A DNA stretch of 40,134 nt from an uncultured Bacteroidales bacterium (GTDB lineage Bacteria > Bacteroidota > Bacteroidia > Bacteroidales > F082): NCBI GenBank assembly GCA_947303625.1, contig CAMYYV010000013.1:1-40134 (forward strand), given 5' to 3'. Below, piece after piece: positions 14,772 through 31,344 of the stretch; within the stretch, counting starts at the first letter, position 1; every line of letters starts with the position of its first letter. The notes beneath the pieces were generated by a model, which did not search any database, was not told the origin of the DNA, and saw nothing but the letters and a program-made list of their open reading frames with translations. Both the position numbers and the translations under genes were made by a program.

Positions 14772-15299
14772 TCAATTCATCAACCTACTCTCACCCCAAT
14801 TGTATTGAGGATAAGCCTTCTTGAGGTCGCTGGCCGAGCCTTCCACTCCGCTGCCACCGCTGGTAGCAAACACGTTGAGGGTCTTGCCACTGAGGTCGTG
14901 GGCCTCGATGAAGGTGTTGACGATGGTCGGGGCGGTGTACCACCACACAGGGAAACCGATCCACACGGTGTCGTAGTCGGCGATGTTCTCGCAGCGGCCC
15001 TTAATGGCGGGGCGCGAGGTCTTGTCGGTCATCTCAAGCGTGGAGCGCGAGGTCTTGTCGCGCCAGTTGAGGTCGGCATCGGTATAAGGCACCTCCGGCG
15101 TAATCTCATAGAGGTCGGCATTGAATTCCTTGGCCAACTTTTGTGCGGCAGCCTTGGTGGTACCGGTGGCCGAGAAGTAAACAATCAAAGTCTTTTTCAT
15201 CTCTTTGTTCTCCTTTCCTTTCGTATTCTGTGTCGTGTTTTGTGCGCAAGCGCCCAACATCAGGCAGCAAACGGCCATTAGCAATGCGATGTGTTTCAT
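14772..15299 (-). CDS. Flavodoxin-like lipoprotein
   Basis: This 175-residue protein has a lipoprotein signal (MKHIALLMAVCCLMLGAC, Cys18), then a polar linker and a flavodoxin domain (about 34-175). The FMN phosphate loop is YFSATGTTKAAAQKLAKEF. Later strands show DTVWIGFPVWWYTAPTIVNT and LNVFATSGGSGVEGSASDLK. Flavodoxins transfer one or two electrons through FMN. A surface or periplasm-facing lipoprotein form is common in Bacteroidota, but its electron donor is unclear. It begins nine bases after the stop of the second flavodoxin gene and shares an operon with it and the C10 peptidase. It ends almost at once after the conserved core, so the C-terminus is short. Confidence 0.85.
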   Translation of the reverse strand: MKHIALLMAVCCLMLGACAQNTTQNTKGKENKEMKKTLIVYFSATGTTKAAAQKLAKEFNADLYEITPEVPYTDADLNWRDKTSRSTLEMTDKTSRPAIKGRCENIADYDTVWIGFPVWWYTAPTIVNTFIEAHDLSGKTLNVFATSGGSGVEGSASDLKKAYPQYNWGESRLMN

Positions 15300-15308
15300 G
15301 ACTTGTCT

Positions 15309-16139
15309 TTATCTGATTACCTTGGTAAACACAGGGGTCTCCTCCCCTATCACGCTCACATAGACTTGCATCTCGCCCGCAGGTGGCATGTCGGGACCAC
15401 CCTCACGCGGGAGGTCGACGGCGGTGAAGAGGTATTCGGTGCCCTCGGGGATGGAGCGCGAAGCCACGCTCTTGGCCTGGGCATGCATCATGGGGTAGTC
15501 GCCCACGGCGGCATCAAAGATAGCGGACTCCTCGTCTGTCACAGGATGAGGGGCAGGAAACTCCTCCAACTTGGTGTATTCACCCTCGATGAATCCGCCT
15601 GCCTTCAGGAACTGGTCGAGTTCCTTGGGCATGGCTTCGAGGCGGGCGGCACGAACGCCATAGCCGGGAAGAATGTCGGCCTTAGGTTCAGCCTTAGCCA
15701 AGTCCTTCACACTCGACTCGAGTCCACCGCTGCCGAAGGTGCAGAACGGGACGACTTTCTTGCCGCTCAGGTCCACTTGATTCAGGAAGGTGAAGACTGG
15801 CGGTGCGTAGGTGCCAAACCATATCGGGTAGCCGAGGAAGATCACATCGTAGTCGGCGACATCGACCTTGAGAGGCTGAATCTCTGGAAAAGCACCCTCG
15901 TCGAGTTCTTTCTTGCCGCGCTCGATGGTGGCGTGAAAGTCACCATCGTAGGGCTGCACCGGGACAATTTCAGCCAAGTCGGCGCCAACCTGCGAGGCCA
16001 GTTTTTCGGCCACCACTTTGGTGTTGGAAGTCTGGGAATAGAAAACCACCAGCGTCTTTGGGGACTCTTTTTTGGGGCCGCACGAGACGACGGCCAGCGT
16101 CATGGTCGCAAGGACCAAAGTCATTTTCAAGCTTTTCAT
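15309..16139 (-). CDS. Flavodoxin-like lipoprotein with C-terminal extension
   Basis: This 276-residue protein has a lipoprotein signal (...TLAVVSC, Cys20). The flavodoxin domain (about 28-190) contains FYSQTSNTKVVAEKLASQ as the FMN loop, DVIFLGYPIWFGTYAPPVFT, and CTFGSGGLESSVKDL. An extra domain of about 85 residues follows, with MMHAQAKSVASRSIPEGTEY and a C-terminal beta-rich segment (EMQVYVSVIGEETPVFTKVI). The smaller paralogue downstream lacks this extension. The gene starts 18 bases after the C10 peptidase stop. The pair of exported flavodoxins beside a secreted cysteine peptidase suggests redox handling in the envelope. That link is inference. Confidence 0.85.
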   Translation of the reverse strand: MKSLKMTLVLATMTLAVVSCGPKKESPKTLVVFYSQTSNTKVVAEKLASQVGADLAEIVPVQPYDGDFHATIERGKKELDEGAFPEIQPLKVDVADYDVIFLGYPIWFGTYAPPVFTFLNQVDLSGKKVVPFCTFGSGGLESSVKDLAKAEPKADILPGYGVRAARLEAMPKELDQFLKAGGFIEGEYTKLEEFPAPHPVTDEESAIFDAAVGDYPMMHAQAKSVASRSIPEGTEYLFTAVDLPREGGPDMPPAGEMQVYVSVIGEETPVFTKVIR

Positions 16140-16157: not shown

Positions 16158-17270
16158 TCATTTTACTACAAATTTAGCCGTTCTATGGAATTGGTCTCCT
16201 TTTATTTGCAAGAAATAAAGACCTTTTCCCAAAGCTTCGACGGAGATGGCTCCATGAGACGCCCCCGTGGCCACCTCTTGTCCCACCACATTATAGATGG
16301 AATATTCCACCTGTTCGCAAGGAAGATGCTTCAAATAAAGGACATCGGAAACGGGATTGGGATATACCATCAGCGGCTGTTGGTGGGCAGGCTCGTGAAT
16401 AGCCGAAGGGGCATCCGCAGGGATGATATTCAAGATAATACCTTCCATCTTGGTCATCCCGTAATAAAAATTGGGGTCAGGGATGTCGTACCAGTCGTCC
16501 AAGACGCCACCGAAACCAAAGTTGACATGGAACTTGCCGTCCTCTTTGCGATAGCCATCGACAACGACATTGTGTCCAACCGTCCCTCCGGGATCTTCAA
16601 TGGCCAAGTGGGCAGGATAACCGGAGAGCAAATTGGAGATAAGAGTAGCAAACATCACCGAATCGGGTTCACGAAACAACTGGCAGTCCGTAAAGCCAAA
16701 CCGCTGGTAGGCCGCCAATGCCTGATCCACACCAAAAGTGCCGGAACCTTGCGAAGTGTACACCTGTGTGAGGGCCGTGCCGCAAGCGAACACCACGGCA
16801 GCTGCCAATGGGTCAGGAAGGTTTTCGCCGCGCTCGAAAGTGGCATCAACAGAATCCAGCATCTCGTTCAACTGAGGGAAGGATGGGAACTGCAGCGTTT
16901 CCCAGTCGTCATCAATCACATAATAGCGGCCGGCATAGTTATGGACATAGTCGTCATCATCAGAAAAGCGGGTGCCTTGCGTCGTCCGCAAATAATTGAT
17001 AATCTGCCCCATGGCAATAGCGGGGCAACCGGCATAGCTGTATGAATTGCCATTGGACGGGTCTCTCGGGCAGAGCTGGTTGTATGGAGATTCCTGCGTC
17101 CAATGCGTAGTCAACATCCCGTCGGCTCGAAGCATCGGAATGGTCGCATCAGGTATTTCGACAGTTTTAATGGAAGGAGTTTGCGCCCAACCATTCGATG
17201 CGCCAAAGAACGCCAACACAGAAAGGGCCAACGACATTCCCAATAAACGCCATGAAATATGCTTATTCAT
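16158..17270 (-). CDS. C10-family (streptopain-like) cysteine peptidase with T9SS sorting domain
   Basis: This secreted peptidase has 370 residues from the ATG at 17270 (MNKHISWRLLGMSLALSVLA). A longer reading frame upstream runs into the repeat array and is not credible. The signal peptide ends near residue 30. The catalytic Cys is probably C82 in YAGCPAIAMGQ and the His H233 in VGHNVVVDGY, both in the streptopain pattern. The preceding HWTQESPYNQLCP is also typical. Residues about 300-370 form a type A T9SS sorting domain (VYPNPVSDVLYLKHL ... GLYFLQI ... KFVVK), so it should be exported through the type IX system and anchored or released at the surface. No long inhibitory prodomain is seen. 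It is the first gene of an operon with two flavodoxin lipoproteins. Confidence 0.88.
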   Translation of the reverse strand: MNKHISWRLLGMSLALSVLAFFGASNGWAQTPSIKTVEIPDATIPMLRADGMLTTHWTQESPYNQLCPRDPSNGNSYSYAGCPAIAMGQIINYLRTTQGTRFSDDDDYVHNYAGRYYVIDDDWETLQFPSFPQLNEMLDSVDATFERGENLPDPLAAAVVFACGTALTQVYTSQGSGTFGVDQALAAYQRFGFTDCQLFREPDSVMFATLISNLLSGYPAHLAIEDPGGTVGHNVVVDGYRKEDGKFHVNFGFGGVLDDWYDIPDPNFYYGMTKMEGIILNIIPADAPSAIHEPAHQQPLMVYPNPVSDVLYLKHLPCEQVEYSIYNVVGQEVATGASHGAISVEALGKGLYFLQIKGDQFHRTAKFVVK

Positions 17271-17295
17271 TTGAAAATTCTTTAGATGTTTTTTT

Positions 17296-17377
17296 GACGC
17301 GGGACGCGGGACTTTGGGACTTCGGGACACGGGACAAACCAAATTGTCTCGCGTCTCGTGTCTCGCAGTCTCACGTC
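17296..17377 (-). repeat. Seven-base repeat array in the C10 peptidase leader
   Basis: On the plus strand, GGGAC recurs six times at about 7-base spacing (GACGCGGGACGCGGGAC...). After a short AAACCAAATT spacer there is a run of GTCTC units (GTCTCGCGTCTCGTGTCTCG). The two half-arrays are roughly inverted copies and could fold into a long imperfect hairpin in the mRNA leader, between the promoter at 17422 and the start at 17270. Confidence 0.75.
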
Positions 17378-17461: not shown

Positions 17462-18100
17462 CTAATCCGTGCCGAAAAGGAAGCGGCGAAACAGTGTCTC
17501 GGCTGCTTCGTCACCGAGCATGCCACGCACAGCGTTGATGGCAGGACCTCCATTGCTGATGAGGCCTTCGACGTATGTGCGATTCCTCTCGGTCTTAACA
17601 GCACGGTCGACATCGCGAGCGGTGCCAAAAAGGTCGAGATATGCGGTCGTCATCGCCGTGGCCAGTTGTGCCAAACGGGGTCCAGGACCTTTCTTGAAAG
17701 TACTGGGAGAGAGTCGGAGGCTGTCGTACCAGGCCGGCTTGGGGTGCTCGTCCTTCAAGTCCCCGAAGGATTCCTTCACCGCGTCCATAGCCGACAAGTC
17801 GACAGGATCCACCTGGGTGTCGTACACCTCAAGCAGCAAACTCTTTTTGCCGAAAGCGATGATTTTATCGTAAGAGAAGATGGGGAGGTCTTTGGCGTAT
17901 GGCGTGCAGATGAGGGTCTCCATCTTCATCAGGCCGAGGAAAGCCCGCATCGTGAGGTACGACACACACGCACAACCGTCCCAATCGTAGGACTGCAATT
18001 GGAATTTCATCCCCTTGCCGGAGAATGTCTGCCAAGGAGTCACATCCTTCGCGACGAGATTGCCTCTTTGGGCAAAAAGATCAACCACGGAGCCATTCAT
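17462..18100 (-). CDS. Ferredoxin-dependent bilin reductase (PcyA/HY2) family homologue
   Basis: This 212-residue soluble protein has no signal peptide. Several segments follow the bilin reductase pattern. YAKDLPIFSYDKIIAFG (68-84) matches the family's [DG]LPLFGxDIV strand, so Asp78 would correspond to catalytic Asp105 of cyanobacterial PcyA. WYDSLRLSPSTF (124-135) resembles the W..(I/L)FS region. TYVEGLISNGGPAINAVRGM, with LFRRFLFG at the end (175-210), resembles the YCxxQxxND..RRVLEKAFG...LFD C-terminus. The His88 position is not conserved. These enzymes reduce biliverdin or related open tetrapyrroles with ferredoxin electrons and are best known from phototrophs and phages. The gene overlaps the DUF1295 gene by 20 bases. 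The substrate is unknown and no heme oxygenase is visible here. The call rests on by-eye alignment. Confidence 0.55.
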   Translation of the reverse strand: MNGSVVDLFAQRGNLVAKDVTPWQTFSGKGMKFQLQSYDWDGCACVSYLTMRAFLGLMKMETLICTPYAKDLPIFSYDKIIAFGKKSLLLEVYDTQVDPVDLSAMDAVKESFGDLKDEHPKPAWYDSLRLSPSTFKKGPGPRLAQLATAMTTAYLDLFGTARDVDRAVKTERNRTYVEGLISNGGPAINAVRGMLGDEAAETLFRRFLFGTD

Positions 18101-18884
18101 GACGTGCTACAGAATAAATGGGTAATAATGGGATAAGTATAGGGGTTTTCTTGACGTAGGCCTGATATTCGGGATCAGACCCATAGTTGGCGTTCTGGCG
18201 CAGCTCCAGCCGACGGGCACCGCTGAACATAATATACACAATGCTGACATAGCCCAAGGCACTGATGAGCCATTGCCACCAAGTGCAACTCGCACCGATG
18301 CAGACCAACAGGCAGCCTGTCCACATGATCACTTCGCCAAAGTAGTTGGGGCAACGGACAATACGGTAGAGGCCCGTGCTCACGAAACGGTTAGGGTTCT
18401 TTTTCTTTGCGGCGGACTTCTGTGCGTCGGCCACCGACTCCACGATGATGCCCAGAATCATTATTCCAGCACCGACCCAAGCCCAAATGTCGTTCACGGA
18501 CAAGCCCAAAGCTGTGTTGTCGAGCCTTGCCGCAACGGGACACACCTCAGCCATATAAAGGAAGGCACAGGCGAGCCAGATGACGAGCGTGACAAAAAAT
18601 GGATAGTTGCCTTCTTTGGTACTCTCCGCGAGAACCTTGCGGTACGACGCGCTCTTAAGCTCCCTCAGCAAGAGATAGCCGCCCAGCCTGCATCCATAAA
18701 GGAAGAGGATGGCACATAACGGGATGGTGGGTGCAGTGAGCACGGCCCAATACTTGATGGCTACGGCCACTGCGCATCCTGCAATACTAAATCCATAGCC
18801 GATGCTGATGAAATAGATGAATTTCTTCCAGCCGATGGCAGAAATCACCAATGCGACGAGAAACAGAATCCAATAAATACTCAT
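18081..18884 (-). CDS. DUF1295 membrane protein (steroid 5-alpha-reductase / isoprenylcysteine methyltransferase-like)
   Basis: An integral membrane protein of 267 residues from the ATG at 18884. A TTG-started extension overlaps the -7 element and is rejected. It has about seven hydrophobic segments (for example IYWILFLVALVISAIGW and FFVTLVIWLACAFLYMAEV). The C-terminal signature is FVSTGLYRIVRCPNYFGEV, then RRLELRQNANYGSDPEYQAY, typical of DUF1295. Relatives are NAD(P)H-dependent reductases of steroids or lipids, or membrane methyltransferases; which activity applies is unclear. It overlaps the bilin-reductase-like gene by 20 bases, so the two are co-translated. The overlap hints that the small reductase may act in the same pathway. 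Confidence 0.85.
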   Translation of the reverse strand: MSIYWILFLVALVISAIGWKKFIYFISIGYGFSIAGCAVAVAIKYWAVLTAPTIPLCAILFLYGCRLGGYLLLRELKSASYRKVLAESTKEGNYPFFVTLVIWLACAFLYMAEVCPVAARLDNTALGLSVNDIWAWVGAGIMILGIIVESVADAQKSAAKKKNPNRFVSTGLYRIVRCPNYFGEVIMWTGCLLVCIGASCTWWQWLISALGYVSIVYIMFSGARRLELRQNANYGSDPEYQAYVKKTPILIPLLPIYSVARHEWLRG

Positions 18885-20251: not shown

Positions 20252-23200
20252 TTATTCCACCACGATCTTCTGCGTCTTCACGTCGTTGCCGCTGATTAGG
20301 CGAAGGATATACACGCCTGGGGTCATCCCTGCTGTAGAGACGTTGCGCGCAACGTCTGTACTGCGAACCACGTGCCCCGTCATGTCAATCACCTGCAAGG
20401 TGTAGGTCCCTGAGCCTGTCGAAGGGCCGTCCGTGATAATGATGTTCCCATTGCTAATGAAGGCAAAGGTCTCGTCGGACGCTGAGTCTGTCGAAGCGTC
20501 TTTCACGCTGAACACCAGCTTGAAACGACTGGCGTAGTCGGTGGTCTTGGCGGTGAAGGTGTAGGAGGCTGGTCCCTGAGCCTGTCGAAGGGCCAGCAGA
20601 TCCACGTCGTTGCCAGTGAGGTTGTCGATGAGATGGAGGTAACCCATCTCCACGTTCTCGGGATTCACCGTGAGGGTGTAAGTGCCGTCTTCGGCGGCCT
20701 TGAAATTGACGGGCATCTCGTTGGTAGAGACGTTGCGCGCAACGTCTCTACCATTACCTACGCTGACAATAGCATATTCATTTCCGCCCTGCGGAATGTA
20801 GAGTTTGGTGGCGTCGGGATTGAGCGTGAATTTGTCGACCGTGGTGCCTTCGCCGAAGTTGATATAGGCGCGGTCCAATAAGGTGGCGTCTCCTCTTGTG
20901 GCTACGGCTTGGCTCACCTCGATTTTCAGGTCGCCATTGTTGTTGCCGTTGCTTCCTTCAGGCCATGTGTGGTTGAAATGCAGCGTGCCGGCATCGGTGG
21001 TTTGGATGAAGAAGCCGCCGCAAGGAGCAATGTCGGAAGGATTCTGATTCACGACAACATTGCTGCCGTTGAGTTCGTAGATGGCGGTAATGTGCGAATA
21101 GCTGCCGTTGACTTCCATGGCCAAACTGCTGATGCTGAGGTTGCGGGCGAAAGGATTGCCCACGAGGTTGAAGCCTGTCAGTCTCGGGGCTGAGGCCGTG
21201 ACGGCGAGGGTCGGGTCGGCGGTGCTGGCGTTCAGCGTTCCGTTGAAGGCGAGCGATGTACCATTGTTGCTGGCATAGAGGTAGCCTTGGCCGTTATTCA
21301 GATTGAAGGTTGCACTCCTGTAATTCTTCCATAATATGTTAGGCTCGTTATAATAATACAGGTCGTAAGTGGATGTCTCAGGCGTGACATCGCTTCCAAA
21401 ATCATCGGTGATAAGGCCGATTGTGGAAGGATTGACAGCTGTGCTTATCGGCGAGGCGATGAAGTTCCAGCCGCCGCCGAGGTTGTTGTCATGGCCTGTG
21501 ATGCTCTTCTCCACCGTGGCCTGCACGCCAGTATTGGTGTGGATGAGCTGTCCGCCGTCAGCAATGGTGATACTGCCTTCCAGATCAATCGTGAGGCTGT
21601 TGCCCGTTTGGGCGATGCAACCGTTAGGGATGGTGGCAGCTTTGGCAATGACAATCTCCTTGTCGCCTGTGGGAAGTTGATTCCAGCACCAGTTGGAAGG
21701 CTCGTTCCAGTTGCCAGCGGTGGTGAAGACATCGTAGGTGTTGAAGCGAGAGGTGAGGCTGACGTCACCGTCGACAGTGTAGCTCTCGCCAGCAAGGTGA
21801 AGTTCTTCATTCTCTCCGACATGAGGATCGGTGAGATGAAGCTCGCTTGGTGAGCCTATGCGCCAGCCCACGAAACGGACGCCTGCAGGCAGGTAGGATG
21901 CCTGAGGGGCGGGCAACTCGAAGCTGCTGCCAGTGACCAAATCTGCCGTCCAGAGAGGTTCGGCGCCGTAGGTGTAGGTGCCGTTGTTGTTCACGGGCAT
22001 ATAGACGCTGACGGTGCTGACCGAGGCGCCCACGCCGCAAACAGTGCATACGTTGTTCTCGTTAAAGGTATGCGTATGGGTGGGACTGTGAAGACAATGG
22101 GTGCAGTGCAGGGTATGTGTGCCGTTGGCATCAGTTCCATTGACGGTGTATGTCGCACCCTCGTGGTTGCAAACTTCGATGACGGCGTATGGACGGTAGA
22201 AACAAGCGGGGACGCGAGTGGCGGAAGGGAATAGAGAGGTGGTGGTGGGTGTCTGTCCAGCGTGGACCATCATGGCGTTACCGATTTGGAGCGTACCACG
22301 GTGGTTGTCACCGTCCTCGCTGCCGATGGCACAGCCGTTCTTGTTGCCGGCGTCTTCGCCAGCCCAAGCCGTCACGCTGCCGCCTTTGATTTCTACTGTG
22401 GCACCATCGGAATCCTCGCCGCCGCCGATGCCGGCACCCCAGCCAGTGCCGTCGGCGAAGACGGTGCCGCCGTAGACGGTCAGAGAGCCGCCGTGCCTAT
22501 TGCCAGATTTCTGCTCACCGCTGCCGATGCCCGCCGCGTCGGTGCCGCCAAATGCGGAGACAGTGCCACCATAGATGGTGACGGTGCCTCCGTTGCCGTT
22601 CATGCCGCCGCCAATGCCAGCGCCGAACCTACAGCTACGGGCAGTGACGATGCCGCCGTAGATGTCGATGGTGCCGCCTGCACCTAGGTTTGATTCACTA
22701 CCAGATTTGGAATTTCCGCCACCAATGCCCGCACCGCGATCATGACTTTCGGCGTTGACGGTGCCGCCGTAGATGGTGAGTCTGCCACCGTTGCCGCCGT
22801 ATTCAGATTGTTGTACTGCGCTGCATCCGCCGCCGATGCCGGCACCATAATAACCTTTGGCAGTGATGGTGCCGCCGTAGATGGTAACGGTACCGCCATT
22901 GCTTACAGACTTGTCGAAGAGAACCACCTTTCCACTGCCTCCGATACCGGCAGAACCTCCACCTCCTACCGATGGGGTTTCGGTATAGCCCTCGGCGTTG
23001 ATGACACCGCCGTGAATTACCAAGGTTCCCATATCACCACCTTCTTCACTGGAACCGATGCCAGCTGTAATAGTATAAGTAGCAAGTCCAATTGTGTATC
23101 CTTTGGCCACGAGCTGTCCCGTGCCGCCGCTTTGGGCGTAGATGTTGAGACAACATCCATTGTTGATGGTTATCTGCGCGGTGAGTTTGGCACCATCACA

Positions 23201-23470
23201 GAGGATGAGGTTTGCAGCCGTGCCAGAGGGGGCTATGAGCCTTTTGTACTTCACGTCGGAGCCGCTGACGACGTACCAGCGGTCGGAGGTCAGCGTGTAC
23301 TCATCATTGGAGTTGCTGCCATTCAAAACAATGAAATCGCTTTCGTTCCTTGTCTCCGAAACGACCGAGTTGACGTCCCAGTAGCGATAAACGTAACTGA
23401 CGCTTTGTGCCCAAGCCATTTGTCCAAAAGCAAAAAAGGCGAGAAGGATGAGGATAGTGGTTTTCTTCAT
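20252..23470 (-). CDS. Large repetitive surface protein with T9SS sorting domain
   Basis: This 1072-residue exported protein has a signal peptide (1-21, ...FFAFGQMAWAQ). Residues about 100-400 are built of repeats such as GGTVTIYGGTVSA and GAGIGGG, which read as rungs of a right-handed beta-helix. Residues about 410-480 hold paired cysteines (LHCTHC, CTVCG). An InlB-like stretch (FVGWRIGS) follows, then a beta-rich domain. A type A T9SS C-terminal sorting domain ends the protein (GMTPGVYILRLISGNDVKTQ). An adhesin or glycan-facing surface role is likely but unproven. The C-terminal third contains several short palindromic DNA elements in frame, encoding DVARNVST twice and RQAQGP once. It is paralogous to the protein at 23674 and to the fragment at 30658. 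Confidence 0.88.
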   Translation of the reverse strand: MKKTTILILLAFFAFGQMAWAQSVSYVYRYWDVNSVVSETRNESDFIVLNGSNSNDEYTLTSDRWYVVSGSDVKYKRLIAPSGTAANLILCDGAKLTAQITINNGCCLNIYAQSGGTGQLVAKGYTIGLATYTITAGIGSSEEGGDMGTLVIHGGVINAEGYTETPSVGGGGSAGIGGSGKVVLFDKSVSNGGTVTIYGGTITAKGYYGAGIGGGCSAVQQSEYGGNGGRLTIYGGTVNAESHDRGAGIGGGNSKSGSESNLGAGGTIDIYGGIVTARSCRFGAGIGGGMNGNGGTVTIYGGTVSAFGGTDAAGIGSGEQKSGNRHGGSLTVYGGTVFADGTGWGAGIGGGEDSDGATVEIKGGSVTAWAGEDAGNKNGCAIGSEDGDNHRGTLQIGNAMMVHAGQTPTTTSLFPSATRVPACFYRPYAVIEVCNHEGATYTVNGTDANGTHTLHCTHCLHSPTHTHTFNENNVCTVCGVGASVSTVSVYMPVNNNGTYTYGAEPLWTADLVTGSSFELPAPQASYLPAGVRFVGWRIGSPSELHLTDPHVGENEELHLAGESYTVDGDVSLTSRFNTYDVFTTAGNWNEPSNWCWNQLPTGDKEIVIAKAATIPNGCIAQTGNSLTIDLEGSITIADGGQLIHTNTGVQATVEKSITGHDNNLGGGWNFIASPISTAVNPSTIGLITDDFGSDVTPETSTYDLYYYNEPNILWKNYRSATFNLNNGQGYLYASNNGTSLAFNGTLNASTADPTLAVTASAPRLTGFNLVGNPFARNLSISSLAMEVNGSYSHITAIYELNGSNVVVNQNPSDIAPCGGFFIQTTDAGTLHFNHTWPEGSNGNNNGDLKIEVSQAVATRGDATLLDRAYINFGEGTTVDKFTLNPDATKLYIPQGGNEYAIVSVGNGRDVARNVSTNEMPVNFKAAEDGTYTLTVNPENVEMGYLHLIDNLTGNDVDLLALRQAQGPASYTFTAKTTDYASRFKLVFSVKDASTDSASDETFAFISNGNIIITDGPSTGSGTYTLQVIDMTGHVVRSTDVARNVSTAGMTPGVYILRLISGNDVKTQKIVVE
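20334..20361. repeat. In-frame palindrome, family A copy 1
   Basis: Core GACGTTGCGCGCAACGTC flanked by GTAGA and TGTAC, nearly a perfect palindrome. It encodes DVARNVST inside the T9SS sorting domain of the 20252 gene. Confidence 0.85.
20405..20428. repeat. In-frame palindromic element, family D copy 1
   Basis: Contains CCTGAGCCTGTCGAAGG, flanked by GGTC and GGCC. An imperfect palindrome that encodes GPSTGSGT on the minus strand. Confidence 0.8.
20478..20500. repeat. In-frame palindromic element, family D variant
   Basis: GACG-CTGAGTCTGTCGAAG-CGTC: same core as copy 1 with compensating changes in both arms (GACGC/GCGTC in place of GGTCCC/GGGCC). It encodes DASTDSAS. Confidence 0.7.
20571..20594. 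repeat. In-frame palindromic element, family D copy 2
   Basis: The same 24 bases as 20405-20428 but read in another frame, giving ALRQAQGP. Confidence 0.8.
20723..20752. repeat. In-frame palindrome, family A copy 2 (perfect)
   Basis: A 30-base perfect palindrome with core GACGTTGCGCGCAACGTC and outer arms GGTAGA/TCTACC, encoding GRDVARNVST. Confidence 0.88.
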
Positions 23471-23474
23471 TTGA

Positions 23475-23560
23475 TATTTAAAGGTTCAAAGATTTAAGAT
23501 TGACTTCGTCGAATGCATTGCATTTCAAAGATTTAAAATTTAAAGATTCAAAATTGGGGA
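23475..23560 (-). repeat. A/T-rich heptad repeats in the leader of the 20252 gene
   Basis: TTCAAAG, ATTTAAA and AAAGATT-type units recur (TTCAAAGATTTAAG, TTTCAAAGATTTAAAATTTA) between the promoter and the start codon. A similar patch lies at 631-668 before korA. Confidence 0.55.
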
Positions 23561-23597
23561 TTACCTGTGGAATGAAGGGAATCTCAAATTGAGGGCG

Positions 23598-23605
23598 CAA
23601 AAGTA
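23598..23605 (-). promoter_or_regulatory. -7 element of the promoter for the 20252 gene
   Basis: Minus-strand TACTTTTG fits TAnnTTTG and sits right after the terminator of the upstream gene. It implies a leader of about 120 bases containing the A/T-rich heptads. Confidence 0.5.
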
Positions 23606-23607
23606 CG

Positions 23608-23649
23608 AAAAAAGTGGAGACCATCCGAAGATTGTCTCCACTTTTTTTT
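23608..23649 (-). terminator. Intrinsic terminator after the giant T9SS gene
   Basis: AAAAAAGTGGAGAC (23608-23621) pairs with GTCTCCACTTTTTT (23634-23647) around a 12-base loop, with T-runs on both strands. Confidence 0.88.
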
Positions 23650-23673
23650 GAGTGTATTATTCTAAAAATCAAA

Positions 23674-26600
23674 TCATCTCACGACGATCTTCTGCGTCTT
23701 CACGTCATCACCGTTGATGAGGCGAAGGACATACACGCCCGGCGTCATCCCGCTGGTAGGGACGCATTGAATGCGTCCGCCACGGGTGACGACGACGCGT
23801 CCCGTCATATCGATGACCTGTAGCGACGCATCGCATGCGTCCGCTGTGATGATGACGTTGCCCGAGGCGTCGATGTAGGCAAAGGTCTCATTGTCAACAT
23901 CTGCGTCCTCGCAGATGGTTGAAAACACCAGCTTGAATCGGCTGGCATAGTCCGTCGTTTTGGCCTCGAAGGTGTACGAAGACGTGGGAGATTGCGGGTC
24001 TTCGCCCGCAATGAGGACGTTGGGGCGGAGTAGGTCGATGTCGTTGCCAGTGAGGTTGTCGATGAGGTGGAGATAGCCCAATTCCAAACCTTCAACATTC
24101 ACCGTGAGCGTGTAGGTACCATTTTCCGAGGCCTTGAAATTGACAGGTATCTCGCCCGTGGTTTCGGCGCAGGCAATGGCGTATTCCTTGCCGCCCTGCG
24201 GCAGATAAATCTTCGTGCTGCCCTCGCGGATTTGCAGTTTGGGCAGGGTCTCACCCTCACCGAGGCGGATGATGGCGCGGTCGATGATGGCGGCGGTGGT
24301 GCAAAGGTTGATGATGATGCGCTCCTCGCTCTCGCCGTCTTTCGAAGGCTCGGCGAAGGTTACCGTCTCGCCGTTCGTGTTGGCCACCACAAAGATGCCT
24401 TCCATGGCGGCGACGGTGGGATTGGTGGCGGCGATGATTTCGGTGCCGAGGTCGTTCATGCGGTAGAACGGCTTGCTGCCGATGGTCTTGGCTGTGCCAA
24501 ACGGGTTGCCAATAAGGTTCCAGCCCTCAAACTGCGCGTCGGCGGTCTTGGCGAGGGTCACTTGACCGTTGCCGCTGTAAGGCGTTCCGTTGAACACCAA
24601 GGTGGTGTTGGCTTGGCTGGCGTAGAGGTAGCCGCGACCGCTTTCAAGGTTGAAGTGGTAGTGGTTGCCCGTCTGCTTCCAGTTCTCCCATTCCAAATCG
24701 GCGTCTTGGTTGAAGCGGTAGAGGTCGTAGGCGGCGGTGAGGAAGCCGTTGCTTGCGGTGGGCGTGTTGTCGTTTACCACAGGCGAGGCGATGAGCGCCC
24801 AGCCGCTGCCAGTGCCGTAGCCGGCGATGGCCTTGAGCGCATTCCATCTCGCATAGAGTTTCACGGTGTGTGGGGTATTAGTCAGGTTGGTTACGCTCTG
24901 ATGTTCGTCATACACCTTCGGTCCGTTAAGTGTGGTGGCCCATCCATCCCAAGTGTAGCCTGTGCAGGTGAAGAGGTTGTAGACAAGGTTCTGCGCCACA
25001 TTGTACATGAAGTCCATGTTGGCCATGGAGCCTGTACCGCCGTTGGCATTGAAGGTGACCCTGTAGGGGAAGGTGGTGAAGGGGCTTTGTGTGATAAAGC
25101 CAGTCTCCACGGTGCCGATGGTGACGGATTGGCAGCTGCTATTATAGCCTGCGCCGATGGCGTTGTCGCAACTACTGCCTTTTGTGGCGGTGACGCGGGT
25201 CACGACTTGGGTAATAGAGATGCTCCCACAATCGGAATAGTTTCTACCGCTGCCGATACCCGCACCATAATCACCGCCAGTGGCTGTGACGGTGCCGCCG
25301 CTGATGGTGATGTTGCCGCAAGAGGATTGGTAGTAGCCGCTGCCGATGCCCGCAGCGCCATAACTACCAGTGGCTGTGACGGTGCCGCCGTCGATGGTGA
25401 TATTGCCGCAAGAGGATTGGTAGTAGCCGCTGCCGATACCCGCAGCAAAGTATCCGCCAGTGGCCGTAACGGTGCCGCCGTTGATGGTAATGCTGCCGCA
25501 ATCGGATTGGTTGTAACCGCTGCCGATACCCGCAGCAGCATAACCGCCAGTAGCCGTGATGGTGCCGCCGCTGATGATAATGTTGCCGCAAGAGGATCTG
25601 TCCTTACCGCCGATGCCCGCAGTCAGCGAACCGCCATTGGCGTTGAGTGTTCCGCTGCCTTGGATGGTGAGGGTCTTGTTTGCAGGCATGTAGATGCCGG
25701 AACTTTCATATCCACCATTTACGGTGTTGGTCGTACCCTCACCCAAGACGATGACGGCGTTGCCCAAACAATCGATGCCTGGCCACTCGTAGTTTTCGTC
25801 ATTGGCAATGGCGGTGATGTCCACGCCGATGAAGGTCACCGTGGCACCGTCGGCAATTTTGACGCGGGTGTTGGGGCCTCCCGTACCTATAAGCGTGTTA
25901 CCGTCTTGGAGCAGCACTTCTCCGGTTTCTTGTGTCAGCGTTACCGTGTTTGTCCATTTCGCGTATAAGGTCACGGTGGCACCTGCGGTCTGCGTCAGGT
26001 TGCTCACGCTCTGCCCATCGGTATAGACTTCTGGCCCGTTGGCCGAAGTGGCCCATCCTAAGAAGTGAAGTCCCCCGTTGGTGAAGGCATTGGCTGTGAG
26101 GTTTTGTGCCACGTTGTACATGAAGGGCATGCTGGCCATCGTGCCTGTACCGCCGTTGGCATTGAAGGCGACCGTGTAGGGGAAGGTGATGAAGGGGCTT
26201 TGTGTGATGAAGCCTGTCTCCACGGTGCCGATGGTGACGGTGCCGCAGGTACTATTATAGCCCGCGCCGATGGCGTTGTCGCAACTATTGCCTTTTGTGG
26301 CGGTGACGCGGGTCACGCTTTGGGTAATAGAGATGTTCCCGCAAGAGGATTGGTCTTCACCGCTGCCGATGCCCGCAGCTTCGTATCCGCCAGTGGCTGT
26401 GACGGTGCCGCCACTGATGGTAATGTTGCCGCAAGAAGATTGGTTGTTGCCGCTGCCGACACCTGCACCATAATTCCCGCCAGTGGCTGTTACGGTACCG
26501 CCATTGATGGTAATGCTGCCGCATGAGGAAAAGAAGGAACCACTGCCGATACCAGCAGCTGCATATCCGCCAGTGGCGTTGACAGTACCGCCGCTGATAG

Positions 26601-28674
26601 TAATGCTACTGCAAGAGGAGTTGTAGCCGCCGCCGATACTCGCACCATACTCACCGCCAGTGGCGTTGACGGTGCCGCCACTGATGGTAATATTGCCGCA
26701 AGATTGGTAGTAGCCGCCGCCGATACCCGCAGAATTACCACCGCCACTGGCGTTGAGTGTTCCGCTGCCTTGGATGGTGAGGGTCTTGTTTTCAGGCACA
26801 TAGAGGCCGGAACTATGATATCCACCAGTTACGGTGTTAGTCGTACCCTCACCCAAGACGATGACGGCATTGCCCAAACAATCGATGCTTGGCCATTTAT
26901 GGCCACTGTCATTGGTAATGGCAGTGATGTTCACGCCACTGAAGGTCACCGTGGCACCGTCGGCAATTTTGACGCGGGTGTTGGGGCCTCCCGTACCTAT
27001 AAGCGTGTTACCGTCTTGGAGCAGCACTTCTCCGGTTTCTTGTGTCAGCGTTACCGTGTTTGTCCATTTCGCGTATAAGGTCACGGTGGCACCTGCGGTC
27101 TGCGTCAGGTTGCTCACGCTCTGCCCATCGGTATAGACTTCTGGCCCGTTGGCCGAAGTGGCCCATCCTAAGAAGTGAAGTCCCCCGTTGGTGAAGGCAT
27201 TGGCTGTGAGGTTTTGTGCCACGTTGTACATGAAGGGCATGCTGGCCATCGTGCCTGTACCGCCGTTGGCATTGAAGGCGACCGTGTAGGGGAAGGTGGT
27301 GAAGGGGCTTTGTGTGATGAAGCCTGTCACCACGGTGCCGATGGTGACGGTGCCGCAGGTACTATTATAGCCCGCACCGATGGCATTGTCGCAATTGGGG
27401 TCTTTTGTGACGGTGACGCGGGTCACGCTTTGGGTAATAGTGATGTTCCCGCAAGAGGATAGGTCGTAGCCGCTGCCGATACCAGCAGCCGCAAATCCGC
27501 CGCTGGTGGCGTTGACAGTGCCGCCGCTGATAGTAATGCTGCCGCAAGAGGATTGATAGCCGCTGCCGATACCCGCACCATACTCACCGCCAGTGGCGTT
27601 GACGGTGCCGCCGTTGATGGTAATGTTGCCGCAAGAGTCGCTGTCACCGGTGCCGATACCCGCAGCATAATCACCGCCAGTGGCGTTGACGGTGCCGCCG
27701 TTGATGGTAATGTTGCCACAAGAGGATGGGGAATAGAAGCCGGCGACGCCACCGATACCTGCAGCAGACTGTGCGCCTGTAACGTTGAGTGTTCCGTTGC
27801 CTTGGATGGTGAGGGTTTTGTTTGCAGGCACATAGATGCCGGAACTGTAATATCCCCCTTTTACGGTGTTTGTTGTGCCTCCACTTAATACGATGACGGC
27901 ATCGCCCAAACACCAGATGCCTGGCCACTGGTGGTTTTCGTCATTGGAAATGGCGGTGATGTTCACGCCGTTTAAGGTCACCGTGGCACCGTCGAGGATG
28001 ATGACTTGGGTGTCGGCGCCGCCCGTGCCTGTGAGGATATGGCCGTTTCGGAGTTGCACTTCTCCACTCCCCGAACTCAACGTCACCACGTTGGCCCCCG
28101 CGGTGGTGGCAACATGCATATAGATGTAGGCGGAGTTGGAGCCGCAGCCTGAGTTGAGGTCATAGCCGGTGCTACCGCCGTTTTCGCCCACGGCACCGTT
28201 TTGGGTGGTGTTGAAGGTGATGCCGGTGACGCCGTGGTTGTTCGTCAAGGCATCCCTGGTGTAATAGAGGTGGATGTAGGCACCACCCGCATTGTTGTTC
28301 AGGTCGCCTTGGCTGTTTGTGAAACTCTCGCTTCCGTTGCATGGAACAAGATAGTAGGTTCTTCCTTCGTGGGTGAGGCTGTTGGGGGGATTGTTGCCCG
28401 TCCTGATGTAGAAGTCAGTGATGGGTACGCCCGTGTTGCCCAAGCTGCTCTGCTTTCTGTAGAGCAGGTGGATGTAGTCGCTGCCGGAGCCGCAGCCAGC
28501 GTTCAAGTCATAGTTGATGTCTATCCAACCTGCTGCCGTGAGGTCGCTTAACTGGCTGTTGAACGTATTCTGGTTTTTGTTGCCGAGAAGCATCACGTCG
28601 GTGATGAAGTCGGTGGCCGACGCCGTTAGCGTCATCGCTATGAGGATGGATAGTGTGAGTATGCGTTTTTTCAT
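23674..28674 (-). CDS. Giant repetitive surface protein with InlB-type repeats and T9SS sorting domain
   Basis: This 1666-residue exported protein has a signal peptide (about 1-20, ...MTLTASA). Residues about 21-195 hold two similar units (NYDLNAGCGSGSDYIHLLY and GYDLNSGCGSNSAYIYMHV). Three modules of about 370 residues follow. Each is a beta-helix-like array of about 27-residue units (SSCGNITISGGTVNATGG ... AAGIGSG) closed by an InlB/Listeria-Bacteroides repeat (YTVAFNANGGTGTMASMPF ... FLGWATSANGPEVY) at about 455-535, 825-905 and 1196-1275. The C-terminal region (about 1590-1666) is a type A T9SS sorting domain (GMTPGVYVLRLINGDDVKTQ). InlB-type repeats are common in surface proteins that bind host or cell-wall partners. 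Modules 1 and 2 share 358 identical bases. Adhesin function is inferred. Confidence 0.9.
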   Translation of the reverse strand: MKKRILTLSILIAMTLTASATDFITDVMLLGNKNQNTFNSQLSDLTAAGWIDINYDLNAGCGSGSDYIHLLYRKQSSLGNTGVPITDFYIRTGNNPPNSLTHEGRTYYLVPCNGSESFTNSQGDLNNNAGGAYIHLYYTRDALTNNHGVTGITFNTTQNGAVGENGGSTGYDLNSGCGSNSAYIYMHVATTAGANVVTLSSGSGEVQLRNGHILTGTGGADTQVIILDGATVTLNGVNITAISNDENHQWPGIWCLGDAVIVLSGGTTNTVKGGYYSSGIYVPANKTLTIQGNGTLNVTGAQSAAGIGGVAGFYSPSSCGNITINGGTVNATGGDYAAGIGTGDSDSCGNITINGGTVNATGGEYGAGIGSGYQSSCGSITISGGTVNATSGGFAAAGIGSGYDLSSCGNITITQSVTRVTVTKDPNCDNAIGAGYNSTCGTVTIGTVVTGFITQSPFTTFPYTVAFNANGGTGTMASMPFMYNVAQNLTANAFTNGGLHFLGWATSANGPEVYTDGQSVSNLTQTAGATVTLYAKWTNTVTLTQETGEVLLQDGNTLIGTGGPNTRVKIADGATVTFSGVNITAITNDSGHKWPSIDCLGNAVIVLGEGTTNTVTGGYHSSGLYVPENKTLTIQGSGTLNASGGGNSAGIGGGYYQSCGNITISGGTVNATGGEYGASIGGGYNSSCSSITISGGTVNATGGYAAAGIGSGSFFSSCGSITINGGTVTATGGNYGAGVGSGNNQSSCGNITISGGTVTATGGYEAAGIGSGEDQSSCGNISITQSVTRVTATKGNSCDNAIGAGYNSTCGTVTIGTVETGFITQSPFITFPYTVAFNANGGTGTMASMPFMYNVAQNLTANAFTNGGLHFLGWATSANGPEVYTDGQSVSNLTQTAGATVTLYAKWTNTVTLTQETGEVLLQDGNTLIGTGGPNTRVKIADGATVTFIGVDITAIANDENYEWPGIDCLGNAVIVLGEGTTNTVNGGYESSGIYMPANKTLTIQGSGTLNANGGSLTAGIGGKDRSSCGNIIISGGTITATGGYAAAGIGSGYNQSDCGSITINGGTVTATGGYFAAGIGSGYYQSSCGNITIDGGTVTATGSYGAAGIGSGYYQSSCGNITISGGTVTATGGDYGAGIGSGRNYSDCGSISITQVVTRVTATKGSSCDNAIGAGYNSSCQSVTIGTVETGFITQSPFTTFPYRVTFNANGGTGSMANMDFMYNVAQNLVYNLFTCTGYTWDGWATTLNGPKVYDEHQSVTNLTNTPHTVKLYARWNALKAIAGYGTGSGWALIASPVVNDNTPTASNGFLTAAYDLYRFNQDADLEWENWKQTGNHYHFNLESGRGYLYASQANTTLVFNGTPYSGNGQVTLAKTADAQFEGWNLIGNPFGTAKTIGSKPFYRMNDLGTEIIAATNPTVAAMEGIFVVANTNGETVTFAEPSKDGESEERIIINLCTTAAIIDRAIIRLGEGETLPKLQIREGSTKIYLPQGGKEYAIACAETTGEIPVNFKASENGTYTLTVNVEGLELGYLHLIDNLTGNDIDLLRPNVLIAGEDPQSPTSSYTFEAKTTDYASRFKLVFSTICEDADVDNETFAYIDASGNVIITADACDASLQVIDMTGRVVVTRGGRIQCVPTSGMTPGVYVLRLINGDDVKTQKIVVR
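23760..23778. repeat. In-frame palindrome, family B copy 1
   Basis: GGACGCAT-TGA-ATGCGTCC, perfect 8-base arms. It encodes GRIQCVP on the minus strand in the sorting domain of the giant gene, at the place where the 20252 paralogue has DVARNVST. Confidence 0.8.
23825..23841. repeat. In-frame palindrome, family B copy 2
   Basis: GACGCAT-CGC-ATGCGTC, 7-base arms, encoding ADACDASL. Same arms as the copy 50 bases away. Confidence 0.65.
23991..24012. repeat. In-frame palindrome, family C copy 1
   Basis: ATTGCGGG-TCTTCG-CCCGCAAT, perfect 8-base arms. It encodes IAGEDPQS. In the paralogue at 20252 this position holds a family D element instead. Confidence 0.8.
25831..26188 (-). repeat. Long identical direct repeat, copy A (giant T9SS gene)
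   Basis: 358 bases identical to 26941-27298 with an offset of 1110 bases. It covers the end of a beta-helix module and the following InlB-type repeat. Confidence 0.85.
26941..27298 (-). repeat. Long identical direct repeat, copy B (giant T9SS gene)
   Basis: Identical to 25831-26188. The flanking 100-200 bases differ at only a few positions, for example gaaggtggtg against gaaggtgatg. Confidence 0.85.
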
Positions 28675-30640: not shown

Positions 30641-30739
30641 TGGTGTTGTTTGTCAAATCATTTTATAACAATCTTCTGCGTCTTCACGTCGCTGCCGTTG
30701 ATGAGGCGAAGGACATACACGCCCGCAGGCATTCCGTTT

Positions 30740-30766
30740 GTAGAGACGTTGCGCGCAACGTCTGTG
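30740..30766. repeat. In-frame palindrome, family A copy 3
   Basis: Core GACGTTGCGCGCAACGTC, encoding DVARNVST in the remnant's sorting domain. Confidence 0.82.
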
Positions 30767-30804
30767 CAACGAATGACGCGACCCATCACATCCATAATTT
30801 GAAA

Positions 30805-30828
30805 GGTCCCTGAGCCTGTCGAAGGGCC
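30805..30828. repeat. In-frame palindromic element, family D copy 3
   Basis: Same 24 bases as 20405-20428, here encoding GPSTGSGT. Confidence 0.8.
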
Positions 30829-30977
30829 GTCGTTGATGATGATGTTGCCCGAGGCGTCGATGTAGGCAAAGGCCTCATTGTCAACATCTGCGTCCTCGCA
30901 GATGGACGAGAACACCAGCTTGAATCGGCTGGCATAGTCGGTGGTCTTGGCGGTGAAGGTGTACTGTGGCGCAAGAG

Positions 30978-30999
30978 ATTGCGGGTCTTCGCCCGCAAT
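30978..30999. repeat. In-frame palindrome, family C copy 2
   Basis: Same arms and loop as 23991-24012 (ATTGCGGG-TCTTCG-CCCGCAAT), encoding IAGEDPQS. Confidence 0.8.
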
Positions 31000-31344
31000 G
31001 AGGGTTTCTGGGTGGAGCAGGTCGATGTCGGCACCCGTGAGGTTGTCGATGAGGTGGAGATAGCCCAATTCCAGGCCTTCGGTGTTCACCGTGAGCGTGT
31101 AAGTGCCGTTCTCAGAGGCTTTGAAATTGACAGGTATCTCGCCCGTGGTTTCGGCGCAGGCAATGGCGTACTCCTTGCCGCCCTGCGGCAGATAAATCTT
31201 CGTGCTGCCCTCGCGGATTTGCAGCTTTGGCAGGGCCTCGCCCTCGCCGAGGCGCACAATGGCGCGGTCGATGACGGCGTCGTTGTTGCAAAGGTTGATG
31301 ATGATGCGCTCCTCGCTCTCGCCGCCTCTCGTTTTGAGTTTTGT

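Follow-up and report, generated by a model that had tools for sequence, protein, structure and literature searches.

What a bilin-reductase-like protein might do in a non-photosynthetic bacterium is the question raised by a gene on contig CAMYYV010000013.1 (assembly GCA_947303625.1) of an uncultured Bacteroidales bacterium of the F082 lineage. The window, meaning the whole stretch of 40,134 nucleotides analyzed here, belongs to a metagenome-assembled genome (MAG) that comprises 135 contigs, with a completeness of 77% and a contamination of 3.66%. The gene (17462..18100, minus strand) is an open reading frame with a translation of 212 residues, predicted to adopt the fold of the superfamily formed by ferredoxin-dependent bilin reductases (FDBRs) and red chlorophyll catabolite reductases (RCCRs). 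Its start overlaps by 20 bp (18081..18100, minus strand) the end of a gene for a DUF1295 membrane protein of 267 residues that resembles steroid 5-alpha-reductases (18081..18884, minus strand; Pfam PF06966). Both genes and the overlap lie where a first-pass annotation of the sequence had placed them.

We find that the gene is real and conserved, and that its protein represents a divergent branch within an established superfamily. Its probable action is to reduce a single double bond in a linear tetrapyrrole taken up from outside, without a bound cofactor. It is not a proven bilin reductase. Directly in hand are the gene, its homologues, the modelled fold, the position of an aspartate, the recurring overlap, purifying selection and broken copies; from these we infer bilin binding, reduction, the electron donor, the substrate and the partnership with DUF1295.

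Predicted fold and profile similarity

The AlphaFold2 model of the protein (pLDDT 82.9, pTM 0.83, calculated from a shallow alignment of 13 sequences) is an alpha/beta/alpha sandwich that matches FDBRs over nearly its entire length. Foldseek and VIA-align matches of the model comprise PcyA, PebA, PebB, HY2 and RCCR. The PebB, PebA, PcyA and HY2 rows score 17.7–19.9, the PebS and PcyX rows lower, at 13.9–15.9. The first-pass annotation had named two outcomes that would count against it, a missing match to the bilin reductase family and a fold other than that of PcyA. The former was observed and the latter was not: the predicted fold is of the PcyA/PebB type, and therefore the bilin-reductase-like reading survives.

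Profile searches were made with alignment A1, which holds 13 copies including the window protein (mean column identity 80%). Four of its members match the Fe_bilin_red family (PF05996) below threshold, with a best E of 0.013. The best of these matches pairs residues 61–209 with profile positions 65–227 at 15.6 bits, under the curated cut-off of 31 bits, and the significant hit anticipated for the window protein itself is missing. Fe_bilin_red is the sole Pfam family that the 13 members match at E≤10. Three known FDBRs reach 66–255 bits with the same model, so the window protein is a far outlier; its identity to known members is 11–21% in an 11-row MAFFT alignment. In NCBIfam, the PebA model is matched by one A1 member (E 0.077) and TrpC by one (E 0.2); we take the TrpC match as chance.

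When A1 is compared by hhalign with alignment A3, a set of 18 FDBRs from phages and cyanobacteria that are annotated as such or closely related, the score is 37.7. The maximum among 100 column shuffles of A1 is 23.4 and the reversed alignment gives 13.7, which makes a chance origin of the profile similarity unlikely. The predicted fold provides a line of evidence separate from this comparison. The placement in the superfamily follows from predicted fold and motif, and the protein stands outside PF05996 by the curated cut-off.

Other searches returned candidates that we reject. By sequence, the window protein alone finds TFIIH p8 and similar chains in the PDB (best E 0.54). The top PDB rows for A1 are designed PPR repeat proteins (E 6.3e-7), in which no individual stretch passes; we take them as an artefact. 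In PHROGs, two unnamed families with a single member each match at E 0.074 and 0.24.

Active site

The motif DLPIFSYD (codons 71–78, 17867..17890, minus strand) ends in Asp78 (17867–17869), which aligns with PcyA Asp105 and GtPEBB Asp99. Both MAFFT and hhalign place it, ungapped, over the catalytic Asp of PcyA, PebS, PebA and PebB, and with its flanking motif it is kept in all 17 full-length copies. When a cyanophage PcyA is compared with the PDB, the D105N mutant entry carries Asn at this column. Passages of PMC6755814 describe this first Asp as critical in FDBRs, with Asn in its place in vascular-plant HY2. They also describe a second Asp, on the loop between the two C-terminal helices, that is needed by PebB and PebS and not by PebA. 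In our model the corresponding loop lies between helices 166–183 and 186–195 and reads NGGP (codons 183–186, 17543..17554, minus strand), with Gly185 at the column of the second Asp in MAFFT and hhalign. Four copies read NDGP, with an Asp one residue before that column. As the second catalytic Asp is absent, a single-step reduction like that of PebA is likelier than a double one like that of PebS, and the protein would be a two-electron, one-site reductase.

Of the three family motifs listed in the first-pass annotation, DLPIFSYD aligns ungapped and the C-terminal block is aligned as well, while the central one is weaker: of its positions in the 11-row alignment, just Pro122 and Ser131 hardly vary, and among close homologues Ser131 varies and Pro132 is constant. 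A gap of one residue would bring Thr62 to the column of PcyA His88, as would fit the pre-3 lineage discussed below; MAFFT and hhalign both place Glu/Asp61 there, and the Thr62 placement was rejected.

Distribution and selection

Relatives were located in titled genomes with short patterns from the window protein, a scan that may miss distant kin. It returned 14 loci, assigned to Bacteroidales (10), Bacteroidia (3) and Bacteroidetes (1). Thirteen of the 14 titles point to ruminants and one is without a habitat. They name water buffalo rumen, yak rumen, yak omasum, sheep rumen and goat reticulum (one each) and red deer (two); six carry RUG-series labels, which, in line with the listing of PMC6785717, we take to be rumen genomes.

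The gene was also sought in sampled whole genomes. In the phylum sample, one of 395 genomes has it, namely the source genome. In the order sample, 15 of 393 match at E≤0.1, five clearly (E≤4e-50, source included) and ten weakly (E 0.009–0.1); one of the weak matches, in genome G636, proved to be a remnant. A profile search of 295 genomes of the order gave five at E≤0.01, including G636. Within the family of the window the source genome is the only carrier among 149 genomes; in another family, that of G474, 11 of 31 genomes carry the gene, all in one genus of 26. No relatives were found in phages, plasmids or viral contigs. The Fe_bilin_red profile exceeds its cut-off in none of 198 order and none of 198 phylum genomes, both sets including the source genome, whose copy it misses too; it may miss other lineages as divergent. 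Of the 22 sub-threshold matches of this profile, the two that were inspected, at L038 and L049 (L numbers denote loci), were discarded, as the genes there read as unrelated. As far as searched, the gene is patchy, confined to Bacteroidota and mostly found in ruminants. Since the window copy stands alone in its family, horizontal transfer or mis-binning of the contig is possible.

The copies are under purifying selection and several are broken. Nei-Gojobori ratios of nonsynonymous to synonymous divergence (dN/dS) are 0.05–0.36 in 12 pairs; dS is at least 1.0 in three window pairs and one other, and two pairs include a stop-bearing copy. One in-frame stop is present in two of the 17 full-length copies (L021, codon 45; L027, codon 24). 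At L034 (250–786, genome G576) the gene breaks off near residue 117 and passes into other sequence that resembles the end of DNA polymerase IV, perhaps a recombination scar. L030 retains about residues 1–78, and L095, L096, L098 and one stretch of G970 are partial copies. All come from MAGs, in which assembly errors or contig ends may account for some of the breaks.

The DUF1295 partner

The partner matches PF06966 at 98.3 bits (cut-off 20.4), and its closest known kin are in the steroid 5-alpha-reductase/DUF1295 family. A methyltransferase is a possible alternative reading, with ICMT, PEMT and NCBIfam isoprenylcysteine methyltransferase matches all below their cut-offs. The pairing recurs elsewhere, as the first-pass annotation had suggested checking: the overlap is exactly 20 bp in all seven loci that have the pair. 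The partner is not a fixed one, being absent at 10 of the 17 full-length copies, and close DUF1295 homologues also occur without the bilin-reductase-like gene. In the bilin-reductase-like protein tree the pairing label needs two changes, a number reached by none of 500 shuffles, with one change in 7% of bootstraps. On the DUF1295 tree, which has few supported forks, it needs three and does not form one clade; 18 of 500 shuffles are as low. In one lineage the two genes are probably translated together.

A trace of a former pair is suggested by G636 (L032, G636:C13). One codon past the DUF1295 stop lies FGLMKMDTLICTPY, 14 residues matching 55–68, with an alignment score of 76, where 100 shuffles reach 52 at most. 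This stretch suggests a remnant of a lost partner gene, with past pairing and later loss. Of nine loci searched for such remnants behind DUF1295, only L032 was positive and eight (L100–L107) were negative.

Neighboring genes

The gene upstream of the pair is CcsBA-like (Pfam Cytochrom_C_asm and ResB). The first-pass annotation had pointed to this heme-handling neighbor; among 19 stretches compared, some of which represent one locus twice and several of which have short flanks, it is seen only in the window. Downstream, a C10-family cysteine peptidase with a type IX secretion system sorting tail (16158..17342, minus strand; Pfam/NCBIfam) separates the pair from two flavodoxin-like genes. The first flavodoxin (15309..16139, minus strand; Pfam Flavodoxin_4, 94.3 bits) has a lipoprotein-like N-terminus, and the second protein (14772..15299, minus strand) is 36% identical to it; both are candidate electron carriers only. 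These adjacent proteins have lipoprotein-like signal peptides and are apparently exported, and a similar lipoprotein-like FMN_red protein is encoded at L017 (5303–6127).

The second protein has homologues of 79–81% identity near the bilin-reductase-like gene, at a distance of 3.3 kb in L020 and 4.7 kb in L027, and MarR and flavoprotein genes occur within 6 kb of that gene in L017 and L024. Our motif scan for flavoproteins was too narrow, missing genes in L017, L024 and L027 that clustering revealed, and its blanks are not evidence of absence.

Some further features of these loci can be recorded. A homologue of the C10 peptidase (about 69% identical) adjoins the bilin-reductase-like gene in L017 and lies about 6 kb away in L027. 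In L028 (7343–7840) a membrane protein of 165 residues with no Pfam match is encoded ahead of the bilin-reductase-like gene, its own gene beginning 1 bp past an iron-sulfur-flavoprotein-like gene. Elsewhere in the window, two adjacent genes (20252–28674, minus strand) encode glycine-rich repeat proteins of great length (1072 and 1666 residues) that are 44% identical to each other over 436 residues; a third frame (30658–31257, minus strand) is akin to them (76% over 204).

Proposed function and alternatives

We propose that a linear tetrapyrrole, derived from plant chlorophyll or from heme, would be imported and enter the pocket, where Asp78 could donate a proton to a ring carbonyl. Ferredoxin, flavodoxin or an iron-sulfur flavoprotein, acting as low-potential carrier, would deliver two electrons singly, and one double bond would be reduced without a bound cofactor, in the manner of PebA. 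The DUF1295 protein, with its steroid-reductase fold, may use the same or a related hydrophobic substrate. An external bilin is favored because neither heme oxygenase nor HutW exceeds its cut-off in the genomes searched. The rumen lies upstream of the entry of bile, which makes host bilirubin a less likely substrate; bilins from chlorophyll, or biliverdin from plant or microbial heme, are more plausible.

Several observations weigh against this reading. The window protein alone has no match in Pfam or NCBIfam, no A1 member attains a curated cut-off of either, and the A1 profile retrieves no FDBR chain from the PDB at E≤10; the hhalign probability is a moderate 66%. In the active site, Gly185 replaces the second Asp of PebB and PebS, and PcyA Glu76 and His88 correspond to Thr50 and Glu/Asp61, so that neither is conserved. 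The same fold is found in 8xks_P, the 'PcyA1' chain of a motor complex, and a fold by itself does not establish function. The window DUF1295 protein stands no nearer to paired homologues (59–62% identical) than to most unpaired ones (55–61%, with one partial homologue at 67%). An internal bilin source was not found in the genomes searched: the source genome (77% complete) has one heme oxygenase match, whose 15 bits fall short of the cut-off of 23 bits, and a HutW/ChuW-type enzyme exceeds its cut-off in none of 14 genomes, 13 of which have lower-scoring matches taken as HemN/HemW kin.

The alternative that survives best, possible if not probable, is an RCCR-like action on open-chain tetrapyrroles derived from forage chlorophyll. 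RCCR is among the structural matches, but it scores below PebB, PebA, PcyA and HY2, and none of the 13 A1 members matches the Pfam RCCR family at E≤10, in a comparison made with Pfam only and with no RCCR profile aligned. We consider it unlikely that the fold has been repurposed for a structural or binding role or another redox reaction without bilin reduction, as Asp78 and its flanking motif persist in every full-length copy. The coproporphyrinogen oxidases likewise score below PebA, PebB, PcyA and HY2, and the 13 members have no match to their Pfam family (HemF) at E≤10.

Reduction of host bilirubin or its products, as the first-pass annotation had it, is very improbable. If the relatives tell the habitat, the ruminant titles of 13 of 14 place the gene ahead of the entry of bile; moreover, FDBR substrates have a C10 methine that bilirubin does not. 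According to passages of PMC10769871, anaerobic gut bacteria do reduce bilirubin through BilR with the flavodoxin-like BilS and the MarR-type BilQ, and the MarR and flavoprotein genes in L017 and L024 recall this system; BilR, however, is described there as an Old Yellow Enzyme, whose TIM barrel is an unrelated fold. That the structure predictor produced a spurious similarity, as the 11–21% identity and the 13-sequence alignment behind the model might suggest, is scarcely credible, given that a structure-free profile comparison exceeds 100 shuffles, that Fe_bilin_red is the sole Pfam match at E≤10 and that the motif aligns gap-free.

Relation to known systems

The protein shares with PebA, PebB, PebS, PcyA and HY2 (PF05996) the alpha/beta/alpha fold, as predicted here, the central Asp, the DLPxF-type motif and the C-terminal block. 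It differs in its sub-cut-off score and low identity, in lacking Glu76 and His88, and in the Gly at the second Asp. In contrast to the FDBRs of phototrophs, its hosts are non-phototrophs, judging by taxonomy, and the source genome has no heme oxygenase over the cut-off. With RCCR its structural score is lower than with the PebA, PebB, PcyA and HY2 rows, and the RCCR family of Pfam gives no match at E≤10.

Bilin reductases have been studied as pigment makers of phototrophs and lately as older enzymes of heterotrophs, as passages of PMC10151467 set out. The emphasis of the first-pass annotation on phototrophs and phages thus needs correction, since 'pre-PcyA' enzymes of heterotrophs (pre-1, pre-2 and pre-3) are already described in that paper, in whose main text no word starts with Bacteroid-. 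In the parts of it that concern these enzymes, they resemble the window protein in their non-photosynthetic hosts, in an Asp105 kept in pre-2 and pre-3 and in the loss of Glu76 and His88. Their clusters are reported there to hold heme oxygenase, V4R, Fe-S, globin or B12-binding genes, whereas none of these was found among 14 Pfam-scanned neighbors here (four in the window, partner included, and ten around relatives). BilQRS, in the sections of PMC10769871 that describe it, acts on an open-chain tetrapyrrole with a flavodoxin-like partner and a MarR regulator, as the flavoprotein and MarR genes near some copies recall, but with an enzyme of different fold.

In the open-access literature searched, which leaves aside subscription papers and most preprints, nothing joins bilin reductases with the rumen or treats rumen chlorophyll breakdown together with pheophorbide. 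For bilin reductases and Bacteroidetes only phytochrome work appears, judging by the listing, and for Bacteroidales MAGs the FDBR term is absent among the matches listed.

As a more speculative proposal, which we regard as rather unlikely, rumen Bacteroidales would hold an independent anaerobic module for linear tetrapyrrole reduction, in which a divergent bilin reductase is co-produced with a steroid-reductase-like membrane enzyme and the module has no heme oxygenase of its own. Bilins derived from chlorophyll or heme would serve it as substrate or electron sink, or be toxins that it neutralizes. A Bacteroidales lineage of anoxic habitats in whose genome no heme oxygenase was found would widen the phylogenetic range of the superfamily and help to place the root that separates FDBR from RCCR. 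It would also offer a way to study what becomes of the large amount of chlorophyll that passes through ruminants.
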